DNA from: an uncultured Clostridia bacterium
Lineage (GTDB): Bacteria; Bacillota; Clostridia; Lachnospirales; Anaerotignaceae
Assembly: GCA_944381455.1 (NCBI GenBank)
Contig: CALWLF010000089.1
Coordinates: 1 to 32,446, forward strand
Direction: 5' to 3'
Length of the DNA stretch: 32,446 bases
Numbering within the stretch: the stretch's first letter is position 1; the number at the start of each line of letters is the position of its first letter. The position numbers and the translations under genes are program-made. Under the pieces are notes generated by a model. That model was not told the origin of the DNA. It ran no database searches and worked only from the letters and a program-made list of their open reading frames with translations. Shown piece by piece: positions 6,789 to 32,111 of this stretch.

Positions 6789-8999
6789 TCAGTCAAAGAC
6801 GGGTTTCAGCACCACAAAACTCAGCGGCGGCAGCGTCATGGAAATGCTGTACGGACAGCGGTTTGCGCCCTGATGCAAATTGGGCAGCAGCCCTTCGTTG
6901 CGGCGGTTGGTGCCGCCAAAGGCTTCGCTGTCGCTGTTGAAAATTTCTCGATACGGCACATCTTCCGGCACGCCCAAAATGAAATTTTCATAAGGGCGCT
7001 CGGTGAAGTTGCAGACCACGGCCACCTGCTCTTTTCTGTCATACCCCCGTCTGGCGAAGGAAACAATGCTGTGCTCGTTGTCATCGCATTCAATCCATTG
7101 GAATCCCCAAGGATCAAAGTCCTTTTCCCAGAAGGCCGGCTCCTGCTGATAGAGGCCATAGAGGGCCTTCATATAGTCGTGGAAACGGCGATGGTCCTCG
7201 TCTTGGAGCAGATGCCAGTCGATGCTGCGGGCCTCGCTCCATTCGCTGTACTGGGCCAGGTCGTTGCCCATAAAGTTCAGCTTTTTGCCGGGATGGGCAT
7301 ACATATAGCCATAGGCTGTCCGCAAATTGGCAAACTTCTGCCACCGGTCTCCCGGCGCCTTATACATCATGGAGCCTTTCATATGCACCACTTCATCGTG
7401 GGAAAGCACCAGCACATAATTTTCGCTGTATGCATACATCATGCTGAAGGTCAAATAATTGTGATGATATTTCCGGTGCACCGTTTCTTTTTTCAGGAAG
7501 CTTAAAAAGTCGTTCATCCAGCCCATGTTCCACTTGAGGCTAAAGCCCAGCCCGTCGTGCTTGACATCCCTGGTCACGCCTTCCCAGCTGGTGCTTTCTT
7601 CTGCAATGGTCAACGCCCCGGGGCACTGGGTATGGATGACAGAGTTCATATGTTTTAAAAACTCCACAGCCTCCAAATTTTCCCTACCGCCATAGCAGTT
7701 GGGCAGCCATTCCCCGTCTCTTCTGCAATAGTCCAAATAGAGCATGGAAGCCACCGCATCCACCCGCAGCCCGTCAATGTGGTATTCTTTGAGCCAATAG
7801 AGGGCGTTTGCAATGAGGAAGTTGCGCACTTCGTTGCGGCCGTAGTTAAAGACATAGGTGCCCCATTCCTTGTGCTCCCCTTGGCGCCAGTCCTGGTGCT
7901 CATAGAGGGCGCTGCCGTCAAAACGGGCCAGGCCATGGGCGTCTCTGGGGAAATGGGCCGGCACCCAGTCCATGATCACCCCAATGTGATGGCGGTGCAG
8001 GATGTCCACAAATTCCATAAAATCCTTCGGCGTGCCATAACGGCTGGTGGGGGCATAATACCCTGTCACCTGATAGCCCCAGCTGCCATCAAAGGGATAT
8101 TCTGTCACCGGCAAAATCTCCACATGGGTATAGCCCATGTTCGTCACATATTCGCTTAACTTCTGGCCCAGTTCCCGATAGGTCAAAAACCGGTTGTTGT
8201 CCTCCACCACCCGTCTCCAGGAGCCTAAATGGACCTCATAAATATTCATAGGACGGTTATACTGGTCTTTGGTGGTGCGAAACGCCATCCACTCCTCATC
8301 CTGCCAGTCATAGCCGTTAATATCGTATACCACCGAAGCCGTTTCCGGCCGCAGCTGGGCATAGGTGCCGTAGGGATCGCTTTTATAGACCACCTGGCCG
8401 TTTTGGCCTTTGACGGCGAATTTGTATAAATCCATTTGCTGCATCCCAGGAATAAAAATTTCCCAGATGCCGCTTTCGCCCAACAGGCGCATCATGCTGC
8501 GTCTCGTATCCCACTGGTTGAAATCGCCAATGACACTGACACTTTTGGCATTGGGCGCCCAAACGGCAAAGGCCACGCCTTTCACCCCGTCCATTTCGCG
8601 CAGATGCGCCCCCAGCTTTTCATAAATCTCATAGTGGTTGCCGGCGCCAAATAAATACCGGTCATATTCGGAGAGGGTGGGTGCAAAGGTGTAGGCGTCC
8701 GGCGTCTGCCAAAGATGGCCGTCGGCAAATTCCACCAGCAGCTCATAGGGAAAATAGGCCGTCCGCCCAGCAATGGTTCCCTCAAAAAAGCCGTCGTCGT
8801 GGATTTTCTTGATGGGAAACGTCTCCTTTGTTTTGCAATCCACCACCGAAACGGCCACGGCAGACGGCATCAGCGCCCGCACCACCACCTGTGGTGCTTC
8901 TTTGGTGCCAATGACGTGCATCCCCAGCACGCTGTGCGGATCTCCAAATTCGCTATGCAGCAGTTTATTGATTTCTTCAATCCCCAGTGAATGTCTCAT
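6789..8999 (-). CDS. glgB: 1,4-alpha-glucan branching enzyme
   Basis: A 736-residue GH13 enzyme that transfers alpha-1,4 glucan segments to form alpha-1,6 branches in glycogen. Two N-terminal beta-sandwich modules (about 10-110 and 140-225, the second a CBM48 with VAFAVWAPNAKSVSVIGDFN) precede the barrel. Catalytic residues are visible: nucleophile D414 (DGLRVDAVASMLYLDY), acid/base E467 (TIAEEST) and the SHDEV aspartate near 535. I chose ATG at 8999 because AGGAG lies 8 nt before it; the in-frame GTG nine bases further upstream overlaps that site. It starts 24 nt after the upstream sulfhydrylase stop, so they are probably co-transcribed. No other glg gene is in the window. Confidence 0.95.
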   Translation of the reverse strand: MRHSLGIEEINKLLHSEFGDPHSVLGMHVIGTKEAPQVVVRALMPSAVAVSVVDCKTKETFPIKKIHDDGFFEGTIAGRTAYFPYELLVEFADGHLWQTPDAYTFAPTLSEYDRYLFGAGNHYEIYEKLGAHLREMDGVKGVAFAVWAPNAKSVSVIGDFNQWDTRRSMMRLLGESGIWEIFIPGMQQMDLYKFAVKGQNGQVVYKSDPYGTYAQLRPETASVVYDINGYDWQDEEWMAFRTTKDQYNRPMNIYEVHLGSWRRVVEDNNRFLTYRELGQKLSEYVTNMGYTHVEILPVTEYPFDGSWGYQVTGYYAPTSRYGTPKDFMEFVDILHRHHIGVIMDWVPAHFPRDAHGLARFDGSALYEHQDWRQGEHKEWGTYVFNYGRNEVRNFLIANALYWLKEYHIDGLRVDAVASMLYLDYCRRDGEWLPNCYGGRENLEAVEFLKHMNSVIHTQCPGALTIAEESTSWEGVTRDVKHDGLGFSLKWNMGWMNDFLSFLKKETVHRKYHHNYLTFSMMYAYSENYVLVLSHDEVVHMKGSMMYKAPGDRWQKFANLRTAYGYMYAHPGKKLNFMGNDLAQYSEWSEARSIDWHLLQDEDHRRFHDYMKALYGLYQQEPAFWEKDFDPWGFQWIECDDNEHSIVSFARRGYDRKEQVAVVCNFTERPYENFILGVPEDVPYREIFNSDSEAFGGTNRRNEGLLPNLHQGANRCPYSISMTLPPLSFVVLKPVFD

Positions 9000-27764: not shown

Positions 27765-30653
27765 TTATTTTTTCCAAGTTTCCGTTTTGTCTTCGTTTCT
27801 GATATACGCATGGCCGTTGGCCGCCTCCATCATCAAGCCGTAGGCCCAGTGGGTTTTGGGCAGGTCTAAAAATGTACGCAGGGTTGTTTCCTGTTCTGCA
27901 ATAAAATCCAAATCTGCCGCGCGGTCTGTCATCCTGTTTAATATGCTGACCACCTCTGCCCGGGTGATGGCCTGTTCCGGACGGAAGGTGCCGTCTGGAT
28001 AGCCGCTGATCCAGTCCTGTTCCACTGCGGCAGCCACAAAACCGGCATACCAGGCCATTACAGGCACATCCGGGAAGAGCACATCCGTCCCCGGCTGTGC
28101 TTTGGCAAAGGCCGTGGCCATGGTCACAAATTCTGCCCGGGTGATGGGTGCATCGGGACAGAACGCACCGTCTGGATAGCCGCTTAAGATACCTCGCCCA
28201 GCCAGGGTGCGCACTGCCATGCCATACCAGCTGTCTTTCGGCACATCATAAAACCCTTTGCCTGTTTCCTGCTGCGGGGCGCCCAGCAGCTGATAAAACA
28301 GCATGGCCGTTTCTGCCCGGGTGATAGTCTGTTCCGGCCGGATGGTGCCGTCTGGATACCCGTTTAAGTAAGGCGCATGATAAGCTTCTCCCTCTGCCCA
28401 AACGGCATAAAGATGATAGGTTTCATCGGGCATGGTAAATTTCTTGCCCGGCAAAAAGTCTGCGGTTCCGCCTGCTTCCTTGCTCCAGCCGGCAAAGACA
28501 AAACCTTTTGGCGCAGAGAAAGGATTCTCGGCCGCTTCAATTTTCTGACCATGATAGAATTTTCCTTCTTTGACTTCCTCTTCTCCATCATGGTAAATCA
28601 CATAATAAGTGTCAATATGACCGCTTCCGCCACCGCCGCCGCTTGCGCCACCAGAAGATGAGGGTTCAAAGATGGCTTCAATGGTTTGATGGTCCATAAC
28701 ATTGGAAAAGGTATATTCCTCCACAGCACCAACGCTTTTTCCATTGACAAGCACGTCGGCAATGACATAGCCCTCCTGGGGCGTGATGGTAAAGGTCTGG
28801 CTTTCTCCTTGCTTCAGTTTCACCGTTCCTTCCGGCGTAATGGTCCCCTGGCCTTTTGCTGTGGCAGAAATAGTCACAAATTCCGTCACAGATACATGCA
28901 TCAAATAGCATCTAGGATCGGTGTGAGTAAAGATTCCTCCAATAAAATTGTGGGCAGATTGATAATATTTTCCCTGCTCCACACCGTCTTTGACATAATA
29001 GCCAAACACTTCCACCATATAATAGTCCCCGTCTACTCTGGCGTGTTCTGCCTTTGTAATAGGAATTACGGATTGCTCGGTCAACACTCTTTGATAGGAA
29101 GCAGAGGTGATGGCTGTGGAAAAAAGCTCCGGTTCTTCCTGACTTCGGGTACCATTTGGGCTGTCCCCTTCTTCATCCCACCAGCTATATCGAAAGTATA
29201 CATAGGTGCCGCTTTCTTTTGCCTCTGGCGTTGCCAGAGGATGAGTGACTTCCAAACCCACATAGGCCGGCTTTCCATCTTCAATTTCCGCAAGTAACGT
29301 GGGCACTGTTTGATTGTCTGCAATAATCTGATCTCCTTGGCGAAATTGAATGGTTGGTTTTGATACTACGCTGTCACTTTCCAGTCTTACCGGGAGCGCC
29401 GCATCAGGCCAACCATTGACGGTGGAAGTATTGGTCAAAATTTTTGTATCTCCATCAATTTTCCACCCTGCATCATAGCCCGGCTTGTTTTCCACATCAG
29501 GGATCTCTGGCAATGTATAATTGGGATTTTTTACCCATTTTTTTGCCTCTTGGTTATATTCATATTGAATGCTTTGTTTATATAGCTTGGTCTGCTCCAC
29601 ACTACCTTGAAACCGCAGCATCACCGGATATGTTTTCGTTGCCCCGGTAAAACTACCTGTATTATTATAACCTTTCTGATCTTGGAAAATTAACAAACAC
29701 CCCTTGGCACTTTTGGTTTTAAAGGCACGCGAGTGATAGTTGGTATATCCCTCATCCGAAGGCCTTGTAATAAAAATCTGAGAAAAACCACTGTAAAAAG
29801 CCTGGGAACCCACCTTCTCCAAAGAAGCCGGTAAATAGGTCACTATTTCTGCATTAGATGCAAAAGCATCCTGGAATGTTTGGTTACCAATAAACCGCAA
29901 TCCTTCCGGCAACTCAAACACAGTCCCCTCTTCACTGCCCTTTGTACGAATAAATTCCAGCCCACTGCATTTTACAAACACTGAACCGCCATCTCCGCTG
30001 CCACCTTGTGTACCCAGCGTTTCCAAAGTATCCGGCAAAATCACACCTGTCAAGCCAGTACAGTCTCCAAAGGCATTTTGTTCAATCCTTTTCATTTTTG
30101 TATTGGACAAATCCAACACACCAGTAAGCCATGTGTTGTTTTTAGCCGCCTGATAACCAATCACTTCTAAAGATGTGGCGTTGGAAAAATCTATGGCAAC
30201 CGTTTGGCATTCCCCCAAATTACTATTCGGCGTCACGACACGGTTAGATTTTTTCCCGCTCGTATAATTATAACGAAACGCATCATTGGCAATGGTTTTC
30301 ACACTGTCTGGAATCGTCACAGAAAAATACATCGTTTCTTGATTTGGATTGTTGGTTTGAAACCAGGATTCCAAAATGCCATAATACGTCCCTCCGACAA
30401 TCGCCATGGCCTCTTCTGGCAGCTCCATGGGATTGTCTGCCGAAAAACCCGGGCCTCCGTTTCGCGTTCCCGCCACTATTCCCTCCAGCGGCTGAACCGA
30501 CGCCAAAGCTCCGTCATTCCTTTCTGTTTCCTCTGGTGTCTGTGCAAACGAAACCGCAGCTTGTAAAACCAGCAAAGCCACGGTAAAAAAGAGAAGATAC
30601 CCAATTCTTATGCCCCTATCTTTGTTTGCCTTGTTGCCTTTTCTTTTGTTCAT
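27765..30653 (-). CDS. SLH-anchored surface protein with leucine-rich and InlB-like repeats
   Basis: A 962-residue exported protein. Residues 1-37 form a signal peptide (basic start, hydrophobic core 16-34, AQT cleavage region). About 100-310 contains BspA-like leucine-rich repeats (VTIPDSVKTIANDAF, LEVIGYQAA, MKRIEQNAFGDCTGLTGVILPDTLETLG, LRFIGNQTF). About 595-663 resembles a divergent InlB B-repeat (GQGTITPEGTVKLKQGESQTFTITP), followed by a Gly/Ser linker (about 664-679) and a Listeria-Bacteroides repeat ending in YHLYAVWAEG. About 760-955 holds three SLH domains, each with GYPDGxxxP and ITRAE, which bind pyruvylated wall polymer. It is probably an adhesin or host-surface ligand. AAAGGAGG precedes the ATG. 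Its upstream region contains a putative invertible segment. Confidence 0.92.
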   Translation of the reverse strand: MNKRKGNKANKDRGIRIGYLLFFTVALLVLQAAVSFAQTPEETERNDGALASVQPLEGIVAGTRNGGPGFSADNPMELPEEAMAIVGGTYYGILESWFQTNNPNQETMYFSVTIPDSVKTIANDAFRYNYTSGKKSNRVVTPNSNLGECQTVAIDFSNATSLEVIGYQAAKNNTWLTGVLDLSNTKMKRIEQNAFGDCTGLTGVILPDTLETLGTQGGSGDGGSVFVKCSGLEFIRTKGSEEGTVFELPEGLRFIGNQTFQDAFASNAEIVTYLPASLEKVGSQAFYSGFSQIFITRPSDEGYTNYHSRAFKTKSAKGCLLIFQDQKGYNNTGSFTGATKTYPVMLRFQGSVEQTKLYKQSIQYEYNQEAKKWVKNPNYTLPEIPDVENKPGYDAGWKIDGDTKILTNTSTVNGWPDAALPVRLESDSVVSKPTIQFRQGDQIIADNQTVPTLLAEIEDGKPAYVGLEVTHPLATPEAKESGTYVYFRYSWWDEEGDSPNGTRSQEEPELFSTAITSASYQRVLTEQSVIPITKAEHARVDGDYYMVEVFGYYVKDGVEQGKYYQSAHNFIGGIFTHTDPRCYLMHVSVTEFVTISATAKGQGTITPEGTVKLKQGESQTFTITPQEGYVIADVLVNGKSVGAVEEYTFSNVMDHQTIEAIFEPSSSGGASGGGGGSGHIDTYYVIYHDGEEEVKEGKFYHGQKIEAAENPFSAPKGFVFAGWSKEAGGTADFLPGKKFTMPDETYHLYAVWAEGEAYHAPYLNGYPDGTIRPEQTITRAETAMLFYQLLGAPQQETGKGFYDVPKDSWYGMAVRTLAGRGILSGYPDGAFCPDAPITRAEFVTMATAFAKAQPGTDVLFPDVPVMAWYAGFVAAAVEQDWISGYPDGTFRPEQAITRAEVVSILNRMTDRAADLDFIAEQETTLRTFLDLPKTHWAYGLMMEAANGHAYIRNEDKTETWKK
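27955..28368 (-). repeat. Three near-identical DNA segments encoding the SLH repeats
   Basis: The three SLH motifs are also alike in DNA: TCTGCCCGG-GTGAT starts at 27955, 28132 and 28312 and is followed about 30 bp later each time by CCGTCTGGATA. The period is 177 and 180 bp. Similarity at this level could permit recombination between repeats. Confidence 0.75.
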
Positions 30654-30786
30654 GTTTGCCTCCTTTACGTTGATTTTTCAAGAAACAATGGTTTCTACGG
30701 TTATCTCCTTCTTCCAAAACCAGAATTGCTTTCTTTGTTTTTTCACATAATAACACAATTCAACGCCGTGTACAGTAACTATGTCA

Positions 30787-30805
30787 CATTGATTTCCTCC
30801 TTTTT
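30787..30805 (-). other. Strong ribosome site followed by ATG-TGA
   Basis: On the minus strand AAAGGAGG is followed by a 6-nt spacer, ATG (30789-30787) and immediately TGA (30786-30784). It lies about 130 nt ahead of the surface-protein start. It may be a start-stop regulatory element or the relic of a gene start. Confidence 0.4.
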
Positions 30806-31010
30806 CCAGTCCTTATTTTTTTATTTTGGAGAGAAGCGATCTATGTACCTGTTTGGTCCCTGTTCTGCCTGATCAGCTCTTTTTTACAACGTAATTTCCC
30901 TTCTGTCGTATACGAAAACGATGTTTTTCTTCAAAACTGAGTTCTTTTACGATAAAAAAATGATTATTTACCATTTTTTGTGATGATTTTTTAATTTTTT
31001 TCACAACAAA

Positions 31011-31053
31011 AAACCGAATGAGCAAGAAAGAAAAAAATAGATTCATTCGGTTT
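31011..31053. terminator. Terminator in the centre of the putative invertible segment
   Basis: AAACCGAATGA (31011-31021) pairs with TCATTCGGTTT (31043-31053). On the minus strand it ends in TTTTTTGTTG and would stop recombinase transcripts; the + strand side is also T-rich. Confidence 0.75.
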
Positions 31054-31070
31054 CTTTTGTTGTCTTTTTC

Positions 31071-31099
31071 TTGTTTTTTTCAGAGGAAAATGGTATATT
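31071..31099 (+). promoter_or_regulatory. Promoter-like sequence inside the putative invertible segment
   Basis: TTGTTT (31071-31076), 17 bp, TATATT (31094-31099). As sequenced it points away from the surface-protein gene and antisense into the recombinase gene. After inversion it would point at the surface-protein gene. The region is AT-rich, so a chance match is possible. Confidence 0.45.
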
Positions 31100-31164
31100 T
31101 TTGCTATGTACTGAAAAAAAGGTTGCCTAAAAACCAGCATAATTACGACAGAAGGGAAATTCCG

Positions 31165-32007
31165 CTATTGAACCAACCCCATTTGTTCCAATTTCTTTTG
31201 ATGCTCTTTTCCACTTTCCATGATATAAATACGTGTCGTTTCGATGCTGGCATGCCCCAATAAGTCAGCCAGCTTTGCAATATCCTTATCCAGTTGATAA
31301 AAAGTTCTTGCAAACAAATGCCTAAGATTATGTGGAAATACTTTTTTGTCAGGCACTCCGGCCTCAAGGCACAGCTTTTTCATATCCGACCAAATATTGC
31401 TGCGGTGCAGCGGCCGGCCCGATTTTGTGCGAAAGATCGCTCCTGATTGAATTTTTTTGCTTTTGGCATATTGTTTCAGCTTTTGCCGCAGCCGCGCAGG
31501 CAGCAGGATGATTCTTCTTTTTCCCTTCCCCTGCACTTCGGCTCTGCCTTGTTCCACAGCAGCCAAAGTGATATATTGCAGCTCAGAAACGCGGATTCCT
31601 GTGGCACAAATGGTTTCCATGACCAGCGACAAACGCCGGTTGCCCTTTTGCCCTGCTGCCTGAACCAAACGCCGGTATTCCGTTTTTGTCAGCTCTTTTT
31701 CTTCCTGCAAAAAGATATTTTTTTGCATTTTCAGCAGTTTCATCCGCAAATCAAACCAGCCCATATAAGAAAAAAATCCGTTGACCGCCACCAATGCACC
31801 GTTGACGCTGGAGGGCCGGTACATTTGCTCCAGCTGCGCTTTCCATTGCAAAAGCGCTGTTTTTTCCAAATTCCGCTCCCCAAAATACTGCAGCAGCCCG
31901 TTTAATTCCCGTCTGTATTTTTCCAATGTGCTTTTGCTCTTTTCCTGTTCTTTTAAATACTGCAAATACTGTTCCATGACATACCTTGTTATCTTTTTTT
32001 CTACCAT
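31165..32007 (-). CDS. Tyrosine recombinase, DNA invertase type
   Basis: A 280-residue site-specific recombinase. The N-terminal SAM-like core-binding domain (about 8-85: YLQYLKEQEKSKSTLEKYRRELNGLLQYFG) is followed by the catalytic domain. Catalytic residues are visible: Arg in ATGIRVSEL (about 136), Lys in the QGKGKRR hairpin, HNLRH (about 222-226), the LGHASIETT histidine (about 249) and the tyrosine in TRIYIM. The ATG at 32007 lies 7 nt after AAAGGAGG and gives the usual length of small clostridial invertases; the frame is open further upstream but without a site. The end (RIYIMESGKEHQKKLEQMGLV) resembles recombinases of promoter-inversion systems. Its substrate is probably the adjacent inverted repeat. 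Confidence 0.9.
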   Translation of the reverse strand: MVEKKITRYVMEQYLQYLKEQEKSKSTLEKYRRELNGLLQYFGERNLEKTALLQWKAQLEQMYRPSSVNGALVAVNGFFSYMGWFDLRMKLLKMQKNIFLQEEKELTKTEYRRLVQAAGQKGNRRLSLVMETICATGIRVSELQYITLAAVEQGRAEVQGKGKRRIILLPARLRQKLKQYAKSKKIQSGAIFRTKSGRPLHRSNIWSDMKKLCLEAGVPDKKVFPHNLRHLFARTFYQLDKDIAKLADLLGHASIETTRIYIMESGKEHQKKLEQMGLVQ

Positions 32008-32070
32008 CGAGCATCCTCCTTTTCCATTGGTCGATTTGCTCCTATTATGCCATGTTTCTGTATAAATATA

Positions 32071-32111
32071 AAAAAGCACAGAATTTTGCAAAAACAAAAT
32101 TCTGTGCTTTT
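32071..32111. terminator. Terminator after the tRNA cluster
   Basis: AAAAGCACAGAATTTTG pairs perfectly with CAAAATTCTGTGCTTTT. On the minus strand it is followed by further T residues and separates the tRNA genes from the recombinase gene. Confidence 0.85.

Follow-up and report, generated by a model that had tools for sequence, protein, structure and literature searches.

The window, the whole 32,446-nucleotide stretch analysed here, makes up all of contig 89 of the 2.05-Mb assembly of an uncultured Clostridia bacterium. Near its right end, an inverted repeat is located between a tyrosine recombinase gene and a gene for an SLH/leucine-rich-repeat surface protein. The features of this locus are as follows.

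27765-30653, minus strand: presumed target of the switch, the gene for a surface protein of 962 aa containing LRR_5, InlB-type repeats and three SLH domains
30654-30892, minus strand: leader of 240 bp from the switch to the start codon
30747-30774, minus strand: weak promoter-like site, TGTACA-16-TATTAT, located outside the invertible segment
30893-30910: surface-gene-side arm of the repeat; full site ACAACGTAA-TTTCCC-TTCTGTCGT
30895-30900: 6-bp centre of the surface-gene-side site, TTTCCC on the plus strand, presumed crossover region
30911-31143: putative invertible segment of 233 bp bounded by the arms, for which relatives have homologues in either orientation
31003-31063: predicted bidirectional terminator, a hairpin with T-runs on both strands (-20.4 and -20.0 kcal/mol)
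31071-31099, plus strand: predicted extended -10 promoter, TTGTTT-N17(TGG)-TATATT, directed toward the recombinase
31144-31161: recombinase-side arm of the repeat; full site in coding orientation ATAGCGGAA-TTTCCC-TTCTGTCGT
31154-31159: 6-bp centre of the recombinase-side site, GGGAAA on the plus strand, presumed crossover region
31165-32007, minus strand: tyrosine recombinase of 280 aa from the ATG at 32007, the presumed invertase

The open frame of the recombinase spans 31165-32097 and is opened by an upstream TTG, while translation from the ATG at 32007 gives the 280 residues reported in the earlier note on this DNA. The domain search detected PF00589 (phage-integrase, catalytic, E 8e-26) and PF02899 (N-terminal SAM-like, E 3e-7), in agreement with the tyrosine recombinase named there, and the nearest solved relatives were XerA/XerC/XerD-like proteins. 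When the residues R, H, R, H and Y were scored, leaving out the catalytic lysine, they were present in 84-86 of the 86 family members, the recombinase of the window included. The R...H-x-x-R...H...Y set in a PF00589 fold and a 9+6+9 bp site with a centre identical in both partners are those of a tyrosine site-specific recombinase. The surface protein likewise had the length and the leucine-rich and SLH character described earlier. Its three SLH domains (PF00395, E 1e-32), together with a hydrophobic N-terminal stretch that on inspection of the sequence was consistent with a signal peptide, characterize it as an SLH-anchored surface protein with a putative secretion signal.

The repeat consists of AATTTCCCTTCTGTCGTA (30893-30910) and TACGACAGAAGGGAAATT (31144-31161), which are complementary at 18 of 18 positions and 233 bp apart. 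Extension of the arms to 30890-30910 and 31144-31164 gave 20 complementary positions out of 21. Remeasuring thus reproduced exactly the values of the earlier note, including the 240 bp between the arm and the ATG of the surface protein gene. Among perfect inverted repeats whose arms are separated by more than 60 bp, the longest in the surrounding 650 bp measured 18 bp, while 60 dinucleotide shuffles gave a longest repeat of at most 12 bp (mean 9.3), indicating that the repeat is not a product of chance. Inverted repeats flanking a short segment, the arrangement that defines invertons, are therefore present. In the 2.05-Mb assembly, the only two places matching the site with fewer than three mismatches were the two arms themselves. 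The perfect arm ends three bases from the stop codon of the recombinase (31161 and 31165-31167), as had been noted. The full recombination site reaches past the perfect arm, so that its outer half-site ATAGCGGAA runs into and overlaps the TAG stop codon. The inner half-sites and the centre are identical in the two copies. The outer half-site on the recombinase side, ATAGCGGAA, is degenerate, and recombination might be slowed by this.

Relatives of the recombinase were gathered from the genus, family and order of the window and from GTDB species genomes, and those with enough sequence were examined for an inverted repeat starting within approximately 110 bp of the recombinase end. The repeat was found just after the recombinase stop codon in 73 of 78 relatives of this discovery set, compared with 2/64, 0/79, 0/59, 0/58, 0/55 and 0/54 (0-3%) at shifted control positions. 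A held-out set, drawn afresh from the whole class with duplicates of earlier loci removed, was analyzed with unchanged criteria, and all 22 usable loci possessed the repeat. The recombinase itself was found in 63 of 391 sampled Clostridia-class genomes, roughly one in six. Alignment of the sites on their dyads revealed 9-bp arms with the consensus ACCACATAA and TTATGTGGT around a 6-bp centre. The two copies of the centre within one locus agreed in 99-100% of cases at every position (81 loci), whereas the four variable inner positions agreed in only 28-45% of comparisons between loci. A centre that matches within a locus and varies between loci fits strand exchange, because the crossover regions of the two partners must match while their sequence is free to drift. 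A third site copy was present in the cassettes L050, L087, L089 and L132, which may thus allow a choice between two inversions, or a small deletion. The recombinase gene appeared broken or frameshifted in L108/L126 (Anaerotignum lactatifermentans DSM 14214) and in L104/L128, and these switches may be locked.

Both orientations of the segment occur among the relatives. The segment of L040 aligned well with those of L045, L046 and L048 only when flipped, and the same was true of L069 against L058, L060 and L112. In both sets the segments were 78-88% identical and the upstream flanks 88-94% identical. The downstream flanks of most of these pairs could not be aligned, indicating paralogous or rearranged loci and not different strains of a single species. 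In 75 of 83 loci, the first sizeable ORF past the switch was co-directional. The domains recurring in these downstream genes were LRR_5, InlB-type repeats, SLH, VWA, cohesin, dockerin and Cna_B/SpaA, listed here as raw occurrences, and other loci carried different genes such as transferases and regulators. Surface proteins are therefore the commonest target of the switch, not its sole one.

Promoters were scored with a simple sigma-A matrix whose values were set from general knowledge, not fitted. Nearly every family segment contained one dominant predicted promoter, mostly TTGACA-N17-TGnTATAAT, which generally lay 20-50 bp inside one repeat and faced outward, and which was unmatched by any of 30 shuffles in 61 of 80 loci. 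It pointed toward the recombinase (OFF) in 68 loci and toward the downstream gene (ON) in 12 of the discovery set, and the held-out set was divided into 11 OFF and 11 ON; as the family loci are mutually related, these counts do not represent independent events. The promoter predicted in the window scored 8.5 (z approximately 1), a value not significant alone; it was accepted since its position, spacing and TGn motif match those of the relatives and it lies in a stretch alignable with the sister species. An outward promoter within the segment, a further hallmark of an inverton, is a prediction with a weak score in the window and a strong one family-wide. As the predicted promoter faces the recombinase, the window appears to have been assembled in the OFF orientation for the surface gene, and flipping the segment in silico placed the end of the -10 box 301 bp before the SLH start codon. 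The hairpin at 31003-31063 had z values of -4.1 and -4.9 on the two strands and sits behind the predicted promoter in either orientation, so that it would stop read-through from the recombinase in both states. The segments of L148 and L154 were longer (353-364 bp) and had a strong outward promoter at each end; the gene might be driven in either orientation, or one end might drive something else.

The closest comparison was provided by the sister species locus L118, where the order of tRNA genes, recombinase, switch, recB, SLH protein gene and DegV gene is that of the window except for recB, a recombinase-like gene that the window locus lacks. The identity between the two loci was 72% for the recombinase and 86% for the DegV gene, and the switch centre was TTTCCC in both. 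The earlier note had named loss of the repeat in close relatives keeping both genes as evidence against a switch; L118 retains the recombinase, the repeat and the SLH gene in synteny. Its repeats (L118:7175-7602) are 86-bp arms with two nested sites in each, and the arms include a stretch resembling the 3' part of a tRNA and the last codons of the recombinase. The SLH proteins (27765-30653 in the window and L118:2439-6320) were 75% identical over the C-terminal 284 aa containing the anchor and differed at the N-terminus. The exposed part of the protein seems, from this comparison, to have been replaced while the switch and the anchor persisted.

The anatomy of the sites, the family-wide linkage of repeat and recombinase, the promoter in both orientations among relatives and the flipped homologous segments were all computed here. 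From them we infer an ON/OFF phase-variation cassette in the window, flipped by the adjacent recombinase, with a probability of about 90%. The tyrosine recombinase would bind the two inverted sites bracketing the 233-bp segment, and strand exchange inside the identical 6-bp centre TTTCCC would invert it. The segment is predicted to carry a single outward promoter, backed by a bidirectional terminator. As assembled, this promoter would direct transcription into the recombinase gene from its 3' end, and recombinase read-through would be halted by the terminator, leaving the SLH surface protein OFF. Inversion would bring the promoter to approximately 300 bp before the SLH start codon, from where it would drive the gene, giving the ON state. 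The inversion in this strain, the role of this recombinase as its agent and the dependence of expression on orientation are the parts proposed on comparative grounds. The proposal of the earlier note that the adjacent recombinase flips the segment and thereby switches the surface protein is supported by the family-linked repeat, the site structure, the outward promoter, the occurrence of both orientations in relatives, the predominantly co-directional downstream genes, many of them for surface proteins, and the synteny of recombinase, repeat and SLH gene in the sister species.

The inverton could work and yet be uncoupled from the SLH gene, if a fixed promoter in the 240-bp leader made flipping matter little. 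The first gene begins within approximately 40 bp of the repeat in many relatives, compared with which the leader of the window is unusually long, and in L118 its place is occupied by recB, which is missing here. The promoter-like TGTACA-16-TATTAT at 30774-30747 could give constitutive expression; however, such matches were near chance in the region around the leader (4 found against 2.6 expected). The site is intact, and the same region scan reported no terminator-like site between the switch and the SLH gene, so the switched promoter should still reach the gene. Uncoupling is unlikely. The leader was also inspected for a remnant of recB, and no clear homology was seen there except the site itself; recB was not found elsewhere in the genome of the window either. 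At 30770-30810 on the minus strand, the leader contains an RBS-like GGAGG followed by ATGTGA, a start codon directly followed by a stop.

A once-active switch now locked OFF in the lineage of the window also seems quite unlikely. The degenerate outer half-site and the weak -35 would agree with it, as would the fact that both cassettes of this genome are in the OFF orientation. On the other hand, the centre and inner half-sites have stayed identical in the two copies, and an intact recombinase retains all of the catalytic R, H, R, H and Y. The second recombinase-switch-SLH cassette of the genome (L116:6723-12992, on contig 123) has the centre TTTCAG and three site copies, at 7639 and 7714 in direct and at 7995 in inverted orientation. 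Its promoter TTGCCA-N17(TGG)-TATATT faces its own recombinase and lies upstream of another SLH protein gene. The repeats of L116 are imperfect and were recognised by eye, not by the repeat scan, and the surface gene of this cassette appears to be frameshifted at its start.

The strong hairpin inside the segment raised a further explanation, a switch acting through a terminator or attenuator like that of C. difficile cwpV, in which inversion alters the folding of the leader RNA and the promoter lies outside the segment. At cwpV the promoter is indeed outside the inversion (PMC2784873), whereas nearly every segment of the present family has its own outward promoter near one end. The hairpin of the window is, moreover, closely similar when read from both strands, so that inversion would leave termination unchanged. 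With the promoter predicted inside the segment, this explanation was rejected as very improbable. The notion that the recombinase is the integrase of an integrated element, with the repeats as attachment sites or a chance repeat, can draw on the tRNA cluster adjoining the gene but is hardly credible against sites that are inverted and 233 bp apart without cargo, an arrangement that recurs in varied gene contexts across Clostridia and is syntenic in the sister species. Phage origin received nothing from one scan of viral contigs, in which no relative of the recombinase was found.

We consider the invertible-promoter switch cassette of the window very probably genuine, captured OFF and functional. 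Its mechanism is of a known kind, that of a fim-like invertible promoter. As in E. coli fimS with FimB/FimE, the promoter is on a short segment bounded by inverted repeats, the tyrosine recombinase is encoded alongside and a surface structure would be controlled. The window recombinase belongs to a different lineage, with XerA/XerD-like proteins as its closest solved relatives, and here there is one active recombinase per switch, its stop codon overlaps one site and the target is a Gram-positive SLH protein. The earlier note had given RecV of C. difficile as an example. The RecV switches (cwpV, flg, cmr) are likewise clostridial, depend on an XerC/D-like tyrosine recombinase and include a cell-wall protein target, with roughly 20-bp repeats about 200 bp apart (PMC2784873). 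The analogy is loose in other respects: recV is unlinked and acts in trans on several switches, and cwpV is controlled by termination from a promoter outside the inversion (PMC2784873), while the window has an adjacent recombinase, a promoter predicted inside the segment and a hairpin similar in both directions. The PhaseFinder-type invertons of gut Bacteroidota and Firmicutes are similarly intergenic promoter inversions near surface genes, in which tyrosine-type invertase genes are positioned to escape transcription from the switched promoter (PMC11892184); those were defined from reads, the present family by comparative genomics. In Anaerotignum propionicum, a relative in the family of the window, a DNA inversion near a chemotaxis gene was detected from reads (PMC5903667).

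What is new is how widely the cassette occurs in Clostridia, together with a conserved dead recombinase paralogue, RecB, which is found in relatives and absent from the window. The gene recB was the first behind the switch in at least 10 relatives (loci with recB: L118:6352-7170, L119, L121, L122, L126, L127, L128, L080, L092, L134 and L105). RecB is approximately 30% identical to the recombinase, and its catalytic His and Tyr, usually also Arg, are replaced (Tyr by Thr, Met, Leu or Val; His by Arg or Ser). The dN/dS values of 0.07-0.16 in six pairs indicated strong purifying selection. RecB is unlikely to be active as a recombinase, and our guess is that it may be a site-binding regulator produced only in the ON state. 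Extending this tentatively, the family in gut Clostridia could possibly be self-regulating: the promoter in the OFF state would produce RNA antisense to the recombinase of its own cassette, and the dead copy, which many relatives would express as the first gene in the ON state, would bind the sites and set the flipping rate, the window being a stripped form without it. In L124 (7952-13989), the block formed by recB and the surface gene seems to lie inverted when compared with the relatives. A run of N marks the junction, and the arrangement reflects a 6-kb inversion or else an error of scaffolding at the repeat.

A description of this Clostridia cassette family was not found in the openly licensed literature, and earlier read-based reports of single loci are possible. 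Promoter inversion as a means of phase variation has been well documented in Bacteroides and in a small number of pathogens; in the present case, a compact cassette was identified from sequence alone. The combination of recombinase and switch commonly precedes adhesin-like or S-layer-type proteins, and the cassette supplies a rule by which switched surface genes, and whether they are ON or OFF, can be predicted in gut bacteria that cannot be cultured. How such switches are regulated is a question that the dead paralogue of the relatives makes testable.
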